Positions 20,179 to 43,502 of a DNA stretch of 64,000 bases are shown piece after piece (positions within the stretch are counted from its first letter, which is position 1; the number at the start of each line of letters is the position of its first letter). A program made the translations under genes and the position numbers. The notes beneath the pieces were generated by a model. That model was given only the letters and a program-made list of their open reading frames with translations. It had not been told where the DNA came from and did no database searches. Source of the DNA: Candidatus Endomicrobiellum agilis (GTDB lineage Bacteria > Elusimicrobiota > Endomicrobiia > Endomicrobiales > Endomicrobiaceae); the NCBI GenBank assembly GCA_020328155.1, contig JAIXMX010000001.1:174889-238888 (forward strand). Direction: 5' to 3'.

Positions 20179-21993
20179 ATGAACGAAGCGTTGGAGAAAA
20201 TTAAACGCGGAACGGATGAAATTATTTCTGCTAGAGAACTTGAAAAAAAACTTGCTTCCGGCAGAAAGTTAAGAATAAAACTGGGTGTTGATCCTACTGC
20301 TCCAGATTTGCATTTAGGGCATACTGTTATTATAAGTAAATTAAAGACATTTCAAGATTTAGGTCACCAAATAGTATTTTTAATCGGCGATTTTACTGCG
20401 CGAATAGGCGATCCGTCGGGTAGATCCAAAACGCGTCCTATTATGACAGATGAGCAGATAGAGGCAAACACGAAAACCTATGCTAATCAGGTATTTAAAA
20501 TTCTTAGTAAAGAAAAAACGGAGATTGCCTATAACGGCAAATGGCTGAAAAAACTCGGCGTAAGCGGACTTTTAAATCTTGCCGCTAAAAGTACGGTAGC
20601 GCAGATGCTTGTGAGAGACGATTTTAAAAAAAGATATAAAGAAAACAATCCCATAAGCATAGTTGAATTTCTCTATCCTTTGCTTCAAGCGTATGATTCT
20701 GTCGCTTTAAATGCCGATGTGGAACTCGGAGGCGGCGATCAAAAATTCAATCTGCTTCTTGGAAGAGAAATACAAAGAGGTTATGGAATTAAAGACGCCC
20801 AGGTTATAATTACCATGCCTCTTTTGGAAGGGACCGACGGCGTTAAGAAAATGTCAAAATCGTATAAAAATTGCATAGCTTTAAACGATTTGCCTAAAGA
20901 TATGTTCGGAAAGATAATGTCAATTTCTGATGAGCTTATGTACAGATATTACGAACTTCTTACGATGGCAGATCTAAATGCCGTTAAAAATATACATCCC
21001 AAAGCGGCGAAATCTGCGTTGGCTCAGGAGATTGTAGAAAGATATCACGGAAAAGAAAAAGCTTTGAGAGCGAAAGCGGAATTTGATAAGATTTTCGTAA
21101 GAAAAGATATTCCGGACGACATCGAAGAATGCCATATTCCACACTATAAAAGAGATATTCGTATTCGGGGCACTAAAGTGGAATACGATGCACAAAATAC
21201 TCCAGACGACATCGAAGGATATTGTAAGGAATACGAAGAATATCGTAGGGAGTACGAAGAATATTATAAGGAATACGAAGAATATTGTAAGGAATACGAA
21301 GAATATTGTAAGGAATACGAAGAATATTGTAGAGAATACAATGGAAAAGATATTCCAGAAGACACCAAAGTGGAATATGATGGGAAAGATATTCCGGAAA
21401 GCACCAAAGTGGAATACGATGTACAAGATACTCCGTCCAACACTGAAGAATATCGTAGGGAATACGAAGAATATCGTAGGGAGTACGAAGAATATTGTAG
21501 GGAATACGATAAGAAAAATACTCTGGACGACATCGAAAAATATTGTGAGGAATACGAAGAATATTGTATGGAATACAATTGGAAAGATATTCCGGAAGAC
21601 ACCAAAGTAGGATACAATTGGAAAGATATTCCGGATGACATCGAAGAATATTGTATGGAATACGGCGGGATAAAGTTATCCGATTTGCTTGTTAAAAGCG
21701 GTATGATTTTAAGCATGAAAAAAGCGAGATGGCTTATAAAACAAGGCGGCGTGAGGATAGATTTGCAAAGAGCAGACGAAGATATTATGGTTAATAAGCC
21801 TAAAAGTAAAAATTCGTTTATTCTTCAAGTGGGGAAAAGAAAATTTAGCAGAATAATATGGATTAGTCCGTACAAATATTATACTGAAAAAACTGCTGAG
21901 GAAAGATTTACTAATTCGCGGTTTTGGGACGCTGTCAAACGGCAAGAAGATTATAATATGGAAAATATGGAGGACTCCTCTACTAATCCGTGA
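20179..21993 (+). CDS. tyrS: Tyrosyl-tRNA synthetase with a large internal repeat insertion
   Basis: Residues 1 to about 315 are a normal class I Tyr[14 protein letters not shown] (HIGH motif, near residue 43), [14 protein letters not shown], the [21 protein letters not shown] tyrosine-site block, and the KMSKS loop ([10 protein letters not shown], near residue 224). The RNA-binding S4 domain lies at about 497-560 ([12 protein letters not shown]...[13 protein letters not shown]...VGKRKFSRI). Between them are about 180 extra residues, mostly heptads of the form EYEEYCK/R alternating with [11 protein letters not shown]-like units. A tail of about 50 residues follows the S4 domain. Total 604 aa against about 400-420 for the family. 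All catalytic motifs are intact and the frame is open, so the insertion appears tolerated. Confidence 0.93.
21100..21666 (+). repeat. In-frame tandem repeats inside tyrS (21-nt heptad unit and a KDIP-type unit)
   Basis: The core unit is 21 nt, GAATACGAAGAATATTGTAAG with small variations, encoding EYEEYCK. It occurs in two clusters (about 21,224-21,340 and 21,445-21,510) with a shorter copy near 21,550. Between clusters lies a second unit, AAAGATATTCCGGAAGACACC-like, encoding KDIPEDT. This resembles the native sequence KDIPDDIEE at the insertion's left edge and recurs at its right edge, which suggests the array grew by duplicating the local tyrS sequence. The period is a multiple of three, so the frame is kept. 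Confidence 0.9.
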
Positions 21994-36734: not shown

Positions 36735-37784
36735 TCGAGGTCAAGCCTCCCCTATTTTATATAAAATTTATTTACTTGTTAAAACCGGCGGATAATCTAT
36801 TAAAAAAACAAATTGCTTTTATTGTCTGGTTCAACTTTTTTAAGCCTATTAACCGCATTTCGTCAAATCCTATACTGATATATTTTCTCTTTAATTCCGC
36901 AGTTTCGCTGCAACGATGATTGTCGTGCTGCTGTCAAAAGAAAAATCTAAAACAATTTGGTTTCCCTTTTGTTGTCAATAAGAATTTTCGTTAATTCTAA
37001 CGGTTTCTAAGCCAGATGTAAACCCGTGTTAAAATTTGAAGAATATTGGTTTGGACTGTCAGCTTAATGCGTAGAAGCTTTTTTATTACAAGCGGCAGCT
37101 TCGTTTTCAAGCATATTTTATTGACGGTTGCTTGCGCCTATTTTATAAGTCGGCTCGTATAATATTTCTTAAATTACCTGTTTCATAACTGTTCCGTATT
37201 TTCAAGTATTCTATAAATAACACTGAGTCTTTGCATTTTGTGATTGACTGCGCTAACAATGCTCTCGGTTTTAATGTCCTAAACTTTTTTATCCGCGTCA
37301 CGCATCGTTGTTAGCAATGCTGAAAGGGCATTTTTCTATCACTCAGTGACGGAGCATTTTGGGATTTTTTTAAACAGCGGCGATTTTGTTTTACTGTTTT
37401 ACTCTAAAATTGAATTTAATAAATCTAAATTAACGTTTTTATGTAAAATACGCGACTATTCCGTATAAAATACTACGCTGATAACATAAAAACAATTGTG
37501 AAACAAAAGTTCAACAAGGACATAACAACTTTTTTCAACTTTCGCTTTTTAATGCAGATACATTTCAAGAAACAGAGGAAAAAAATACAACTTTAATTAT
37601 AAAAAAAATTACCGCTACCTGAAAGAATACTTTTAATAATACTCCATATTTTAAAAATCATTCAGATTTTAATAATTTTAGCGAAAATCAATTTTCAGGG
37701 CAACTAAAATATACACAATCTTCGCACTTTTCAGGATTAAAATCATCAATATATTCTTTTTTCGGCGATATTTTTCACCTTTTT
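36735..37784. other. 1.05-kb region, decayed
   Basis: No intact gene. The minus strand between about 37,340 and 37,180 reads in one frame as NALSALLTTMRDADKKV, a stop, then DIKTESIVSAVNHKMQRLSVIYRILENTEQL, so a former protein gene was probably here, but I cannot name it. The rest is AT-rich with many stops in all frames. A short direct or inverted repeat is not obvious. Confidence 0.45.
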
Positions 37785-38450
37785 TCATTTTTCTGATTTA
37801 TGAAAAGAACATATATAATCACAATATTTTCTATAGCCATACTTGTCATAGAAATGTTTATTGTAAAAATATTTTAAAAAGTTATCTACACCATAGCCCT
37901 CTATATAACAGCCATATTCTCTACAATGTAAATCTCTATCACAGCCTTCTCTATTATATCCAGCTTTATCATAGCCATGTCTATCATAGCCTAGTACATC
38001 ATAGCCATATTTATCATATCCATCTTTGTTATAGCCATCTATATGAAAACCAGCTATATTATAGCCATATATATTATAGCCATCTCTGCGATAGCCATCT
38101 CTGTCATAGCCATCTCTGTCATAGCCATCTCTGTCATAACCTTGTCTATCATAGCCATGTGTATCATAGCCAGCTTTATTATAGCCATCTATATGATAGC
38201 CTCTTTTATCATATCCATCTTTGTTATAGCCAAATCCATTATAGCCTTGTCTGTCATAGCCCAATTTATTATAGCCACTTATATGATAACCATCTTTATC
38301 ATAGTTATCTTTGTTATAGCCAAGTATATTATAGACACCAGCACCAGCGCTATTATTATTGCTACGAGATGAAGCAGCAATAAGTTGCTTATTGAGACCA
38401 AAAAATAAACTAACTATAAAAAGCATAAAAATTACTTTTTTCATTTTCAT
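37785..38450 (-). CDS. Secreted protein built of GY(D/N)xx pentapeptide repeats
   Basis: The N-terminus is a signal peptide (MKMKKVIFMLFIVSLFFGLNKQLIAAS). From about residue 38 to 185 the chain is an almost uninterrupted array of pentapeptides of the form GYDKD, GYNKA, GYDRQ, GYHID, roughly 30 units. A non-repeat C-terminus of about 35 residues contains several Cys and Tyr. Aromatic residues every fifth position predict an extended or solenoid-like surface protein. AAGGAG lies right before the ATG. Similar Tyr-Asp-Gly repeats are known in some secreted bacterial proteins, but I cannot assign a function. Its shorter relative is the lipoprotein at 42,247-42,480. Confidence 0.8.
   Translation of the reverse strand: MKMKKVIFMLFIVSLFFGLNKQLIAASSRSNNNSAGAGVYNILGYNKDNYDKDGYHISGYNKLGYDRQGYNGFGYNKDGYDKRGYHIDGYNKAGYDTHGYDRQGYDRDGYDRDGYDRDGYRRDGYNIYGYNIAGFHIDGYNKDGYDKYGYDVLGYDRHGYDKAGYNREGCDRDLHCREYGCYIEGYGVDNFLKYFYNKHFYDKYGYRKYCDYICSFHKSEK
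37950..38345 (-). repeat. 15-bp tandem repeat array encoding the GYDxx units
   Basis: The plus strand shows ATCTCTGTCATAGCC and variants repeated head to tail. Three exact or nearly exact units stand together at about 38,090-38,140, and diverged units flank them. Greater identity in the middle than at the edges fits recent local expansion. Confidence 0.85.
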
Positions 38451-38537
38451 ACACTCCTTTTACACACTATGAGGCTTATATGTCTATTCCATTGCCACCT
38501 TCTTCTTCTTTATTTAACCCGATATTTGTCGGTTTTT

Positions 38538-38822
38538 TTATCTGTATATGCTAACTTCGCTAGCTTTTGCGGGTACGACCTCAAAAAAGCCTTTGTCGGC
38601 AAGGTCAACAAGAGGTAGTTCCCACGTTCCGATTTTCAAGACTTTTTTAAGCAACCTAGTCGCACCTACACATATTAAGTGAAGAACCCAATTACAAACT
38701 CGGGGCAGTATAACTACAGTAACTACTGCAGTAGCGATTGAATAAGCCACAATATTAATGTCGGACGACGCTTTATCAATGCACGGCAATATAATTTTCA
38801 TTTGCTCATCGGCGAGACTCAC
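38538..38822 (-). CDS. Small membrane protein of the island, unknown
   Basis: The product (94 aa, GTG start) has a hydrophilic N-terminus (MSLADEQMKIILPCIDKASSD), a hydrophobic stretch (AYSIATAVVTVVILPRVCNWVLHLICVGATRLL) that could span the membrane once or twice, and a soluble tail. No family is recognised. It lies between the GYDxx repeat protein and the dead lipoprotein at 38,894. The ribosome binding site is weak, so the start is uncertain. Confidence 0.45.
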   Translation of the reverse strand: MSLADEQMKIILPCIDKASSDINIVAYSIATAVVTVVILPRVCNWVLHLICVGATRLLKKVLKIGTWELPLVDLADKGFFEVVPAKASEVSIYR

Positions 38823-38893
38823 GCTGGTCTTATTATTTGAGTTAGTTACAGCGCGCTAGTTGTTATAAACATTCAGGACTGTTTCTTTTACTA

Positions 38894-38968
38894 TCAGCAT
38901 AATTTCTTTTTTTCACCGTAGCCTGCCAGCATCATATAGCATACTATTAAGCTAACTATTTTTTTCAT
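38894..38968 (-). pseudogene. Truncated copy of the small-lipoprotein gene
   Basis: The minus frame reads MKKIVSLIVCYMMLAGYGEKKKLC. It is a relative of the intact small lipoprotein at 41,223-41,387 (MKKVVSLVVCCIMFIGC): both share the leader AGGATAAGT-ATGAAAAAA. Here the lipobox Cys has become Tyr (LAGY) and the frame stops after 24 residues. It is a dead duplicate. Confidence 0.6.
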
Positions 38969-39120
38969 ACTTATCCTGTCGTGACAGATAAGAGTTTTTA
39001 GTTATTAGTCAATAACATACTCCGACATAATTACACTTAAACATTATATCGCGCCCGCACGTTAGTTTTGTTTTTAGTGTGTAATTTTCTGTCAGTAGTC
39101 ATTATCAATTAATTTAAGAT

Positions 39121-39204
39121 AATACTACCGTACGCCTTCGGCGTTTGGTTAAGCCAAAATAAAAGACGATTTTGGCTTTTGGTGTCACCTGTGCATATAT
39201 ATTT
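39121..39204. repeat. Copy A of a hairpin-containing direct repeat
   Basis: This block is nearly the same as 42,937-43,044: ACTACCG, GCCTTCGGCGTTTGGT, AAGCCAAAATAAAAGACGATTTTGGCTT, then GTCACCTGTGCA. It contains a small CGCCTTCGGCG hairpin and a longer stem AAGCCAAAAT/ATTTTGGCTT (39,151-39,178). The latter could act as a terminator. The two copies bracket most of the lipoprotein island. Confidence 0.85.
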
Positions 39205-39326
39205 TAGATTATTAGTATATTAGATAATTATAACGAAAAAAAACACATTGAAAAATCAATCAGTTTTTAGCGAATCAGCATATGGGAACACATATATAAT
39301 AACAAATTAAAAAATAACCGTAAAAT

Positions 39327-39446
39327 TTAACTTTTAATATATTTTTGTACTAATTCGTTAAGATAGGGTTGTCTGTGTTGACTATACGGATCATGAAAAC
39401 AATGCTTCTGAAGTTCTGCTAAACGATTCTGATGTACTAAATTCAT
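39327..39446 (-). CDS. 39-aa small protein of the island
   Basis: This frame is too short for the track. It reads MNLVHQNRLAELQKHC...PYLNELVQKYIKS and begins 6 nt after the stop of the preceding (frameshifted) gene, with GAGTAGAG ahead of ATG. Composition is protein-like and helical with basic residues. No family is recognised. The tight spacing supports translation as part of an operon, at least before decay. Confidence 0.4.
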   Translation of the reverse strand: MNLVHQNRLAELQKHCFHDPYSQHRQPYLNELVQKYIKS

Positions 39447-39452
39447 CTCTAC

Positions 39453-39850
39453 TCATTGATTTAGTATCGGCATGTCAGAAATAGATTTTAGAAGAGCAGG
39501 AGATTGGCTTTCATATTCCGCTTGTAATTCTTGATATTGTCTATAAATTCATAGTCTAGAAGCATCTTGATATTTGATGAAAAAAGTTCTGAATCAAATT
39601 TATAATTTTCTGTCATCTGCTTCTTTAAGTAAAGTTTTTCTTCTAGGTCGGCATTATCATGCTGCTCCTGTAATTTTTTAAATAATTCATTATTTGGAAC
39701 TAGTGCATAATAGAAATAATAACTATAATCTTCAGAATCTCTTTTTATAGCTTCATCAAAACTAATTTTTTCAATTAGAGAACTTTCATCATATCGTTTT
39801 TGACGAGCTTTGTGGAACGACTTATGCATTTCAAGTCGCATATCTTCCAT
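39453..39850 (-). pseudogene. Frameshifted hydrophilic protein of the island
   Basis: The track ORF (39,488-39,850) begins MEDMRLEMHKSFHKARQKRYDESSLIEK and runs to LLDYEFID, then degenerates. From about 39,555 a second frame continues naturally as RQYQELQAEYESQSPALLKSISDMPILNQ up to a stop at 39,453. One indel near TTTATAGAC explains this. The joined product would be about 130 residues, acidic and helical, without signal peptide. Family unknown. Confidence 0.55.
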
Positions 39851-39941
39851 TTACTAGTTGGAACTATCGTAATATCAGAATAATCCCAATAACCTTAATA
39901 ACCGTCGCTTTCTATACATCCATTAATCCTAATCTTCCAAC

Positions 39942-40142
39942 TTATATCTGCTCTAACTCCTCTTGTGTATATTTTTTTAATAATGGTTTTATTGACTGGT
40001 TTTCAACTTTGACAGGCGATAACTTCCTCTCAAATTTACCTTTTAAATAATAAAATCCAATAAGTACAGCCGAAGTAATCACAATCATATTAAACGGATT
40101 ATTGTACCACTTCAAAACTGTAGGCTCAATACTGTCGGACAA
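39942..40142 (-). CDS. Small single-pass membrane protein of the island
   Basis: The product has a transmembrane helix (FNMIVITSAVLIGFYYL, about residues 17-33) and a basic C-terminus (KYTQEELEQI at the end). The frame is open upstream to about 40,220 and includes another hydrophobic piece (VVGTLITHAIYKG), so the annotated TTG start may be too short or the gene may be the frameshifted continuation of the lipoprotein at 40,221-40,574. No family recognised. Confidence 0.4.
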   Translation of the reverse strand: MSDSIEPTVLKWYNNPFNMIVITSAVLIGFYYLKGKFERKLSPVKVENQSIKPLLKKYTQEELEQI

Positions 40143-40220
40143 AGCTGGAGCAGATTTTTTCGGCGCGGAAACACCTTTATAAATGGCATGTGTAATTAGA
40201 GTTCCGACTACAATACATGC

Positions 40221-40574
40221 TCAGCAGTTCCGGCATCTGAAGCATAAGCGTCTATTGAAAAACATGCTTTGAAAGAAATTGGACAGAATTATCCCGAAGG
40301 CAATTTTGCAGATTCGTATCGCTCCGATACGCACAGCTCTATCGGACAGAGCTGGAACAGTTTCATTCGTCTCGGATGTTGGAGTGGGTGTAAATGTTTG
40401 GCTCAGGTTTAGGAGCGAGAGCTTTTGAAGGCTCAAGAGCAGTCTCTGATGCCAGCGGTGCGGCGTTGAAACGACTTCGCTTTCCTTTTTGTCAACAACA
40501 GTATTCACAGTACTTCCATGATTAGGCAGCTTATCACAGCCAGACGTCAAGAATATATATATAATTTTTTTCAT
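40221..40574 (-). pseudogene. Frameshifted lipoprotein, paralogue of the 42.2-kb lipoprotein
   Basis: The start (MKKIIYIFLTSGCDKLPNHGSTVNTVVDKKESE) matches MKKIICICLCIFLASGCGKLLNSAGTVNTVTEK at 42,247-42,480, but its signal segment has lost several residues. After about residue 36 the open frame becomes Leu/Arg-rich nonsense, while another frame reads NAAPLASETALEPSKALAPKPEPN, a credible Pro/Ala/Glu-rich linker. It then switches again to TPTPTSETNETVPALSD. At least two indels have disrupted the gene. Confidence 0.65.
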
Positions 40575-40679
40575 TTATATCCTATCGCGACAGTTAAGAA
40601 ATCGTTACATCTGGCAGAGCGTTCGAATATCAGCGGATTGCTCCGCTAAAATATTTTTGACTTATATTATTCTCTTTGT

Positions 40680-40762
40680 ATTATCTATATTGGAATAGTA
40701 CGCATTTCAAATAATTCGGCAATCGGTTACTCACGGACAATCCTTATTATTGTGAACTATCT
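40680..40762. repeat. Copy 1 of an intergenic direct repeat
   Basis: TTATCTATATTGGAATAGTACGCATTTCAAATA...CACGGACAATCC resembles the segment at 42,172-42,248 over about 75 nt. In both places it lies between the end of one small minus-strand gene and the start of the next. Confidence 0.75.
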
Positions 40763-41181
40763 TCTTGCTTGGGTAGCACTTGTACTACTGCGTTCACTGA
40801 TTCCTTCAATTTCATTACCGCTTCTGTCTGTATGGTTATGCTATCACTTACCTGTTTAATTTTTTCCTGTATTCCCTGTCCGTCAACAGTTCCTTTATCC
40901 TTTTTAAAATAACCAAACTTGAAGAGCATATCTATTGTAAAACTTGTAACAGCTAATAACGTTATCAATATTAACGCCGTAAGTTATTGGGTTCTTCCAA
41001 ACAGACGTTTCAAAAACGTTGTTTGATATCGCTCTTGCTTCGTAATTGTAATGAGTGTGCGTATCAGCAGGAACAATCTTATCTACATGTACTACCTTTT
41101 CAGTTACTATCGGTTCTTTCATCGTCTTTGTATAACCCATCGTCATCATCGGACACAACAACACGGCAATCACTTTTTCAT
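40747..41181 (-). pseudogene. Membrane protein broken by two frameshifts
   Basis: An AGAGGT site precedes ATGAAAAAGTGA at 41,181: losing one A from the A-run makes a stop at codon 4, while the other frame continues IAVLLCPMMTMGYTKTM, a natural signal sequence. Near 40,980 the frame changes a second time, from NPITYGVNIDN to TALILITLLAVTSFTIDMLFKFGYFKKDK. Joined, the product would be about 140 residues: signal segment, hydrophilic part, one transmembrane helix, then a helical tail (EKIKQVSDSITIQTEAVMKLKESV). The two overlapping track ORFs are its pieces. Confidence 0.65.
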
Positions 41182-41222
41182 ATTTTTACCTCTTTTACTT
41201 TATCTTTCTCTGTATTCTGCTC

Positions 41223-41387
41223 CTACTGAACATGTGCTGATTTGAATGCATCTGTTTTTATTTCTTTCATTGCAGCAGTAATCGGTTCAATCATTTTAAT
41301 AGTTACCTTTGAGGCAACACTGTCTGCTATCTGGTCACAACCTATAAACATTATACAGCATACTACTAAACTAACTACTTTTTTCAT
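41223..41387 (-). CDS. Small lipoprotein (54 aa)
   Basis: Missed by the track because of its length. The ATG at 41,387 follows AGGATAAGT. The product reads MKKVVSLVVCCIMFIGC (lipobox FIGC, Cys 17), then DQIADSVASKVTIKMIEPITAAMKEIKTDAF, a predicted amphipathic helix. It is intact, unlike several neighbours. Small lipoproteins of this design occur in envelope complexes, in phage lysis (Rz1-like) and in secretion systems, but no specific family can be named. Confidence 0.6.
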   Translation of the reverse strand: MKKVVSLVVCCIMFIGCDQIADSVASKVTIKMIEPITAAMKEIKTDAFKSAHVQ

Positions 41388-41560
41388 ACTTATCCTACCC
41401 TATACGGAACAGGCAGGAGATTTTTACAACAGTATTCGGACGCCGAATCGGCAGTCTGAGGACTGCCTTTCGGCTCAATTGTTAAGCAGATTACTGCTCT
41501 TTATTGCATACGATTAATATAGTATACCAAATAATATCAAGCATTAATCAAATTCAAACA

Positions 41561-41596
41561 AAAAAAGCGCAACGAGATAACTTATTGCGCTTTTTT
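41561..41596. terminator. Bidirectional rho-independent terminator
   Basis: AAAAAAGCGCAA pairs with TTGCGCTTTTTT across a 12-nt loop. The stem ends in A/T runs on both sides, so it could stop transcription from either direction. It lies between the dead gene at 41,671 and the small lipoprotein gene, suggesting separate transcripts. Confidence 0.8.
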
Positions 41597-41622
41597 GTCT
41601 CCTTTGACTGTTCATAAAAAAA

Positions 41623-41648
41623 AGAGCCTGCAGGTGCCTGCAAGCTCT
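41623..41648. terminator. Second hairpin, terminator-like
   Basis: AGAGCCTGCAGG and CCTGCAAGCTCT form a long stem with a two-base loop and one mismatch. It is preceded by an A-run and so, read on the minus strand, ends in T's directly downstream of the gene at 41,671-42,146. It stands in tandem with the hairpin at 41,561. Confidence 0.7.
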
Positions 41649-41670
41649 AATATAACTTTTCTTTTTTTAC

Positions 41671-42146
41671 TCAAAACAAAACATCATTAGGTTTATAAAC
41701 ATATCTAAACAAAGCCTCTTCATCAACACCTTCATTTAAAAAAGGTTCTTCTTCAATACGTTTATTTTTCGTCCAATCGTAACAATTACCAGTGTCACTA
41801 AAATAACAAGGTTTATAATCTAGCGAGATGATTTGTCCTTCAGGAACATTAACTTTATTTAAGTTAGAAAGATGACGTTGCGAGTTTATAATATTTAAAA
41901 AATTTGCATAGCGGACATTACAAAAATCCTCGTCTCTTAATGCCGAAATACATTCGGCAACAGTATAATCATCTTTAGACTCCAGCTCAAACATTGATAT
42001 CGGCATCGGCATCAGTGTCGACGTTGGGTGTGGATTACTTACTTAGCTAACAGCGTCATAATACGCAGCATTTCCGATATCAATTAGCCTGCCATAATCA
42101 GCGATTAAGCTTACAATTAAAAACAACGATAATATTCTTTTCATGA
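41671..42146 (-). pseudogene. Disrupted signal-peptide protein of the island
   Basis: The gene starts with ATG at 42,146 (MKRILSLF...), but a run of seven T's puts it out of frame. The continuation LIVSLIADYGRLIDIGNAAYYDAVS lies in another frame, ends at TAA (42,045), and after that stop the same frame runs on as VSNPHPTSTLMPMPISMFELESKDDYTVAECISALRDEDF to 41,671. The track ORF (41,671-42,012) is thus only the last 113 residues. At least one indel and one nonsense change are needed to explain the whole. The function is unknown. Confidence 0.55.
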
Positions 42147-42171
42147 TTAATTCGTAATTATCTTTTTCTTA

Positions 42172-42248
42172 TTATCTATCTTGGAACAGTATGCATTTCA
42201 GATACATCAGCGGACTACACACGGACAATCCCTGTATGGTGTTATCTT
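42172..42248. repeat. Copy 2 of the intergenic direct repeat
   Basis: TTATCTATCTTGGAACAGTATGCATTTCAGATA...CACGGACAATCC matches the copy at 40,680-40,762 apart from scattered substitutions and small indels. It follows the stop of the GYDxx lipoprotein gene. Confidence 0.75.
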
Positions 42249-42480
42249 ACTTTCTATCATAACCAGCTCTATTATAATCTAACATATCATAGCCGTCTTT
42301 ATCATAACCGTCTTCATCATAGTCATTCGACTTATGTATAGGTGTAGGTTCTGGTTCTGGTTCTGGACTAGCTTGCTTAACCTTTTCAGTAACAGTATTC
42401 ACGGTGCCTGCACTGTTAAGCAACTTACCACAGCCAGACGCCAAGAATATACACAAACATATACATATAATTTTCTTCAT
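42247..42480 (-). CDS. Lipoprotein with a short GYDxx repeat tail
   Basis: I start it at the ATG at 42,480 instead of the TTG five codons upstream. The signal MKKIICICLCIFLASGC carries a good lipobox (LASGC). The mature protein has a Ser/Thr/Val segment (GTVNTVTEKV), a Pro-Glu linker (SPEPEPEPTP), and then YDEDGYDKDGYDMLDYNRAGYDRK, about five units of the pentapeptide that builds the secreted protein at 37,785-38,450. The design suggests an outer-membrane-anchored display of the repeat. The product is short (77 aa), and the end may be truncated. Confidence 0.65.
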   Translation of the reverse strand: MKKIICICLCIFLASGCGKLLNSAGTVNTVTEKVKQASPEPEPEPTPIHKSNDYDEDGYDKDGYDMLDYNRAGYDRK

Positions 42481-42543
42481 TTTATTTCTTAACAATTCCT
42501 AATTTTTTCCTCAACCAAATTTCAGAGATTTCAGGAATTTTAT

Positions 42544-42729
42544 CTATTCTGACAAATAAGGTTTATAAAGATATAAATAGAAACAATATATACCCTTAAA
42601 GGTATTACGAACAGGTATTTCTATTTCTTTAGTCTGTTTTTTTGTCTCTCTATCCCGATAAAAAGAGCGATAAAATATACCAAGTACAAATAATAGTCTC
42701 AAAATTCCAATGCTCGTTAATTTGTTCAA
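42544..42729 (-). CDS. Possible small membrane-associated protein
   Basis: The track ORF starts at TTG, but the same frame is open upstream to about 42,890 and reads like protein there as well (YPDYYHKKILSEEHYKRRKKGRLRQLYRLYTTK), followed by a hydrophobic helix (IGILRLLFVLGIFY) and a Tyr-rich end. No start codon with a ribosome binding site is found in the extended frame. It is either the 3' part of a damaged gene or a small protein with an unusual start. Family unknown. Confidence 0.35.
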   Translation of the reverse strand: MNKLTSIGILRLLFVLGIFYRSFYRDRETKKQTKEIEIPVRNTFKGIYCFYLYLYKPYLSE

Positions 42730-42936
42730 GAGAAAGGTTAACAGTTTTGTAGTATAAAGCCTGTAAAGCTGACGAAGTCTGCCTTTCTTTCTCCTTTTGT
42801 AGTGTTCTTCGGATAATATTTTTTTGTGATAGTAATCGGGATACGGGATATTAACATGCTTACCTTCTATTAGCCAGATATTTCGTCGTTAATCGTTGTA
42901 GCTTGGCAATTATTTTCGGAAGCATAGGCATATAAG

Positions 42937-43044
42937 ATTACTACCGCATGCCTTCGGCGTTTGGTGAAGCCAAAATAAAAGACGATTTTGGCTTTCGTTA
43001 AGCGTAGTAGATTAATAAAAAGATGTCACCTGTGCAGATATATT
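42937..43044. repeat. Copy B of the hairpin-containing direct repeat
   Basis: This copy matches 39,121-39,204 but carries about 25 extra bases (TTAAGCGTAGTAGATTAATAAAAAG) between the stem-loop (42,967-42,994) and the shared GTCACCTGTGCA end. Confidence 0.85.
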
Positions 43045-43206
43045 ATTATTTTCAGTAATTTTTGTCATAACTTCGGTGATTTTTGTATAAACGGTGTCTC
43101 CTGTAATATTACAATAGAAGCGACTTTGCATTGTGTATAAGCTTAATTATATGCCATTTTTTTAACTTATTGTCAATTAATATAAATCTAGTACGCTTAC
43201 GCTAGC

Positions 43207-43362
43207 ATGAATAAAAGGAATAATTATAATCATCGTAAAAGAGAAAAAGACGAGCGATATGCAGCAGGTGCAATGCCAAAAAGAAAAAAGGGCAATAAGA
43301 TACTTTTCAATAGAGATGCTATAGTTATCTCTTTTTTGCTGTTATATTGTCATAAAATATGA
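43207..43362 (+). CDS. Possible 51-aa basic protein
   Basis: The frame MNKRNNYNHRKREKDERYAAGAMPKRKKGNK, then a hydrophobic end (AIVISFLLLYCHKI), is open from 43,207. No good ribosome binding site is present. It may be a fragment. It is listed because it is the only coding-like piece in the 450 nt between the island and the zapB-like gene. Confidence 0.2.
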   Translation: MNKRNNYNHRKREKDERYAAGAMPKRKKGNKILFNRDAIVISFLLLYCHKI

Positions 43363-43502
43363 CGGCGTTTTATAAAGAAAGAGTTCATAAACATAAATAA
43401 GATGCAATATTAGTTGAAGATGGATTTAGCGACTTAATTATCGTCTTCCGCGTATTGATATACTGCATTGACAATCCTGCAGGCAAATTGTAAAATATTG
43501 GC

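Follow-up and report, generated by a model that had tools for sequence, protein, structure and literature searches.

A GYDxx pentapeptide repeat protein with a predicted export signal and solenoid fold in a species-specific island of Candidatus Endomicrobiellum agilis

Results

The repeat gene and its leader

We analysed a 64,000-nucleotide stretch of the Candidatus Endomicrobiellum agilis genome (the window), in which a minus-strand ORF at 37785–38450 encodes a GYDxx-repeat protein of 221 amino acids. A Shine-Dalgarno-like AGGAG, read directly at 38454–38458 (minus strand), lies 9 nt from the second ATG (38444), a normal spacing and the better one of the two candidate starts. This ATG also matches the MKKV start of the paralogs, so translation probably starts at 38444, giving a protein of 219 amino acids.

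The export signal, MKKVIFMLFIVSLFFGLNKQLIAA, is encoded at 38373–38444 (minus strand). The hydrophobic signal region spans residues 3–26 and is followed by a short Ser/Asn-rich stretch; read for an n-region, a hydrophobic core and an AxA-like site, the sequence is a candidate type I signal peptide. The Cys that ends a bacterial lipobox is Leu in the window copy (FFGL) and Tyr in a paralog, C6 (FGY), while it is kept in paralogs C2a, C2b, C2c and C18 and in ORF 42247, described below. Genes for LspA and for LepB (signal peptidase I; PF10502) are both present in the genome, open and intact, and either type of leader could therefore be processed in principle. The hydrophobic sequence, the lipobox on the paralogs and the two peptidase genes support the signal peptide claimed in a preliminary description of this DNA, and from these sequences we infer that the protein is exported. 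Published work describes this lineage as lacking many components for outer-membrane assembly (PMC11257099), so a surface location should not be assumed.

The repeat array

The array comprises 25 contiguous in-register pentads (residues 44–168), encoded by 15-bp DNA units at 37947–38321 (minus strand). In the 53-residue C-terminal tail (residues 169–221; 37788–37946, minus strand) the register is lost. The pentad consensus is G-Y-(D/N)-(K/R)-x: among the first 29 units Gly fills its column in 25 and Tyr in 24, followed by D, N or H, then mostly K or R, and a free last position. Strict G-[YF]-[DNH] units number 23 in one register, while none of 20,000 composition-preserving shuffles gave more than 5, and TRF independently found a 15-bp array of 26 copies with a 73% match. 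ORF, register and DNA array were all recovered as expected for a secreted five-residue Gly/Tyr repeat on a 15-bp tandem array, although the earlier count of about 30 pentapeptides was slightly high. The array centre had been described as almost identical in DNA, which is true of 3–4 central units (residues 104–123) and not elsewhere, adjacent units sharing on average 68% nucleotide identity.

Paralogs in the genome

The genome (1.29 Mb, 23 contigs) contains 12 matches to the repeat protein. Besides the window copy there are at least four further long arrays (C6, C2a, C2b and C2c), and short or broken ones at C18, C10, C19 and window 42247–42495; all five long arrays are open, without stops. 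The closest paralog is C6, which has the N-terminal 'LIAASSRSN' block in common with the window protein and also lacks the lipobox Cys. C2a, C2b and C2c carry the lipobox SGC, and most other GYDxx arrays of the genome sit in lipoproteins, within the islands described below. Arrays range from about 19 to 37 units per gene, which supports the proposed length variation between paralogs only.

The ORF at 42247–42495 (minus strand) encodes a lipoprotein leader with an SGC lipobox, a Glu/Pro linker and 4–5 YDxxG-like (GYDxx) units. Its leader is 78% identical over 132 nt to that of C2a, which continues with a long Pro/Thr linker and about 20 units, and other members of the same leader family have a membrane segment instead. 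Such combinations of like leaders with unlike distal parts point to swapping of leaders and modules.

A species-specific island

The gene lies in an island flanked by ackA on one side and the zap/rarA genes on the other (36897–43458; about 6.56 kb). This interval measures 6,563 bp in the window versus 1,059 bp (1.06 kb) in G063, the closest relative searched, with flanks at about 82% DNA identity. Small ORFs on the minus strand make up the island; many are broken, and several carry a lipobox leader. They include a degraded lipoprotein ORF of the same leader family as ORF 42247 (40221–40574, minus strand) and a pseudogene with one TAG (41184–41393, minus strand) from a second lipoprotein family (IGCDQ..DSVASKV). 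Members of the first leader family were located at 40 places, spread over 13 contigs of this genome, and at none in 39 congeners; the second occurs at 5 places here and in none of the other genomes searched. Islands of small lipoprotein genes are thus found in this species and are absent from all 39 congeners searched, and their true number may exceed our count, several being at contig ends. Rfam gave no match in the island, and a promoter scan did no better than shuffles.

Islands of this kind were seen in the window and at L039, L040, L041 and L042. Other tandem repeats crowd them (KPADG, SVPE and ICIC runs); one lipoprotein (L041:5643–6467, minus strand) has an (IC)n run within its signal peptide, from a simple DNA repeat.

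Comparison with known families

No well-studied repeat family gave a credible match, whether in Pfam, NCBIfam, PHROGs or as a PDB fold, and the preliminary description stands in this respect; matches in the three family libraries were at chance level, with none in Pfam at E≤1. The classical pentapeptide repeat proteins (PF00805) consist of A[D/N]LXX units and adopt the Rfr fold (PMC8145042, PMC7337050). Membership calls for at least 8 tandem units that fit [STAV][DN][LF][STR]x or the 2019 extended consensus, and no unit of the window protein fits either. Like PF00805 proteins it has gapless tandem five-residue units, 25 where at least 8 are expected, and in the AF2 model a beta-solenoid bridged once in each unit. 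As to a right-handed quadrilateral beta-helix, the model offers this spacing of bridges every five residues but no PDB fold match. Unlike them, it has a Tyr/Phe rather than a Leu/Phe core, preceded by Gly and not by D/N; at i-2 it often has a charged residue where theirs is small, and Foldseek returned no match.

The best PDB sequence-profile match (E 5.5e-17) was to the repeat region of DotG/IcmE in the Legionella Dot/Icm core (7muc, 9ngw). Both repeat glycine and aromatic residues at a spacing that a period of five can accommodate; the DotG unit, however, is a decapeptide with a single Ala-Gly-Phe/Tyr, in which Leu takes the alternate slot. The alignment had an accuracy of about 0.5, the window protein has no DotG domain, and the full-length DotG/IcmE model NF033900 scored 12 bits (E 0.038) against a cut-off of 750 bits. 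Because the match rests on periodic glycine and aromatics common to both, we do not take it as membership. The designed protein 7ong, another PDB sequence match, was set aside as periodic composition in the same way.

Candidatus Ichthyocystis is a host-associated bacterium with expanded tandem repeat gene families, IchFam (PMC4943182). It resembles the present case in being host-associated and in having GYDxx-repeat genes in multi-copy arrays. Its repeat proteins differ from the window protein in their N-termini and in a His-x-x-Gly-type punctuation, and we linked no named IchFam to these genes.

Distribution of the repeat

Arrays were found in 2 of 39 congeners, one being the public genome Endomicrobiia bacterium MS502-33, and 9 of 295 Elusimicrobiota genomes gave a match. 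Beyond the phylum, arrays with the same period and the same G-Y-D/N core occur in Syntrophomonas, Clostridia, other Bacillota, Nitrosopumilus, Candidatus Ichthyocystis, Nocardia and viral contigs; a plasmid search gave one weak match, in Gordonia. The tested motif strings were not found in the literature searched. In Syntrophomonas the repeat accompanies a zinc ribbon and membrane segments, in an elusimicrobiotal protein (L019) carboxypeptidase-regulatory and PEGA domains, and in a Bacillota protein (L024) a C-terminal helical domain like that of the RNA polymerase alpha CTD, while the Nitrosopumilus arrays have neither a signal peptide nor any other domain. Arrays that lack a signal peptide or adjoin a polymerase-like domain argue against host display as the general role of the repeat, and the wide taxonomic spread in differing contexts argues for a general module rather than an invention of termite symbionts.

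A longer punctuation, GFxxxGxHxxTxxxYD or more strictly GFxxxGxHxxTGxxYD, lies inside arrays of MS502-33, Clostridia, Nitrosopumilus and C18 (L044:3248–4534, L023 and L033 among them); the window protein is without it. This common element suggests that the repeat has a single origin and did not arise by convergence alone. On a 70-kb viral contig (IMG/VR 3300037010_003043; L037, L068, L121) we observed a tandem protein family whose members have a conserved N-terminal domain in common and differ in the length of their GYDxx tails.

Constraint on the repeat unit

Over 140 units of this genome, pN/pS was 0.15 for Gly and 0.35 for the D/N position, and 1.17 and 1.28 for positions 4 and 5. The value for Tyr (1.54) was not low, since Phe can take its place and the silent site of its codon sees little use; across taxa, position 2 holds Tyr in 563, Phe in 142 and Leu in 33 of about 750 units. 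In a six-frame comparison, overall pN/pS did not single out the sense frame (0.82, versus 0.92, 0.74 and 0.94 in the antisense frames) and is therefore no evidence for the frame, for which the stops and the Gly codons are. Gaps between units were multiples of five residues in 73 of 75 cases in Syntrophomonas, 74 of 75 in L019 and 32 of 32 in paralog C2c, and neighbouring units in these period-locked arrays share 58–66% DNA identity. That the period is kept even between neighbours with as little as 58% DNA identity argues for structural constraint over fresh slippage alone.

Predicted structure

AlphaFold2 (AF2), given a 15-row alignment, modelled a five-residue beta-solenoid with pLDDT 92–97 over residues 41–150. 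Beta-bridges fell on Tyr (11) and on the following Asp/Asn (11), and none on the other three pentad positions. As a control, the antisense translation was modelled as a single long helix with pLDDT 90; pLDDT is thus not discriminating here, yet the solenoid topology is not automatic. For many repeat sequences AF2 is documented to predict beta-solenoids that are unrealistic despite high confidence (PMC11795689). With the model as query, Foldseek returned no PDB structure at E≤10 and no viral hit that was credible, to which repeat masking may contribute. The extended or solenoid fold proposed earlier is accordingly what AF2 predicts, and it is unproven.

Discussion

The reading we favour, which we hold tentatively and put somewhat short of an even chance, is that the window protein is an exported solenoid or stalk module that makes multivalent contacts and is diversified by array length and by leader swapping. 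On the AF2 model, the array would form a regular solenoid or spiral with a period of five residues, to which every unit contributes a short beta-bridge at Tyr-Asp/Asn and then an x-x-Gly turn. It could serve as an envelope stalk or a multivalent contact surface. The signal-peptide and lipoprotein leaders in the species-specific islands form a large family that has expanded recently, and the array would be among the several distal modules attached to them. The sequences directly show the array and its period, the types of leader, their expansion, the island and how widely the repeat is distributed, whereas export, the solenoid, an envelope location and a contact or stalk role are inferred. The carbohydrate binding, tyrosine cross-linking and host display envisaged for it at the outset are possible roles that gained no support from our analysis.

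The main rival, and a serious one even though we consider it unlikely overall, is largely neutral repeat growth in the non-essential islands of a drifting, repeat-prone symbiont genome, the window copy being a decaying island member that needs no function. The broken ORFs and the pseudogene next to it fit this explanation, as do the KPADG, SVPE and ICIC repeats throughout the islands and a species-specific Glu/Tyr repeat insert even in a tyrosyl-tRNA synthetase. The out-of-register tail and the lost lipobox Cys suggest that the window copy may be decaying, and together with the synthetase repeat they give the rival particular weight for this copy. Neutral growth does not readily account, however, for a Gly-Tyr-Asp/Asn core and an exact period held in unrelated phyla by old, diverged units, for the purifying constraint on Gly codons, or for five long arrays that have stayed open.

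Alternatively, the repeat could be a disordered sticker-and-spacer sequence with no fixed fold, whose regularly placed Tyr residues, together with Lys/Arg, would mediate adhesion or condensation. The composition of the window protein (Tyr 17%, Gly 15%, Lys+Arg 15%) and the aromatic preference at position 2 across taxa would suit such a polymer, and AF2 confidence is unreliable for repeats. We nonetheless regard it as quite improbable: an exact five-residue period over 30–100 old units is rare in disordered linkers, and the AF2 bridges fall at the same two positions in every unit that has one.

Least probable is that the repeat began as a structural module of a phage, stayed behind in the island and multiplied by duplication. 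Suggestive of this are the GYDxx arrays of viral contigs, some of them inside very large proteins, and a Phage Tail Collar ORF near C6; against it stand a search of the deposited phage records (50,697) that gave no match at E 1e-5, PHROG searches of the island ORFs that convincingly matched only the collar ORF, and arrays in chromosomal genes of Nitrosopumilus and Syntrophomonas.

If the favoured solenoid is real, it represents a widespread, unnamed repeat fold missed by current family libraries, and a simple, design-like scaffold of one aromatic and one turn in five residues. The GYDxx repeat looks like a real, yet uncharacterised and unnamed, structural building block. A bolder proposal, which we judge rather doubtful, is that it constitutes an unrecognised class of five-residue solenoid, with a fixed aromatic and D-x-x-G corner turns, that acts as a transferable scaffold in bacteria, archaea and viruses of prokaryotes, and that here serves as a distal module in the lipoproteins of a species-specific, newly evolved family. 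The species-restricted burst of lipoproteins in a reduced symbiont genome would also be a place to seek fast-evolving host or phage contact proteins of protist endosymbionts.

Two features of other genes deserve mention. The Phage Tail Collar domain ORF (E 4.5e-8; L040:3857–4252, minus strand) lies about 0.6 kb upstream of C6, in the same island. The tyrosyl-tRNA synthetase ORF of the window (20179–21993, plus strand, 604 aa) contains, between its catalytic and C-terminal domains, a species-specific insert of roughly 190 residues, a Glu/Tyr-rich tandem repeat of EEYCKEY encoded by 21-bp units; in the 33 matching congeners, whose frames are mostly 386–418 aa, the match stops near residue 315–321 where complete.
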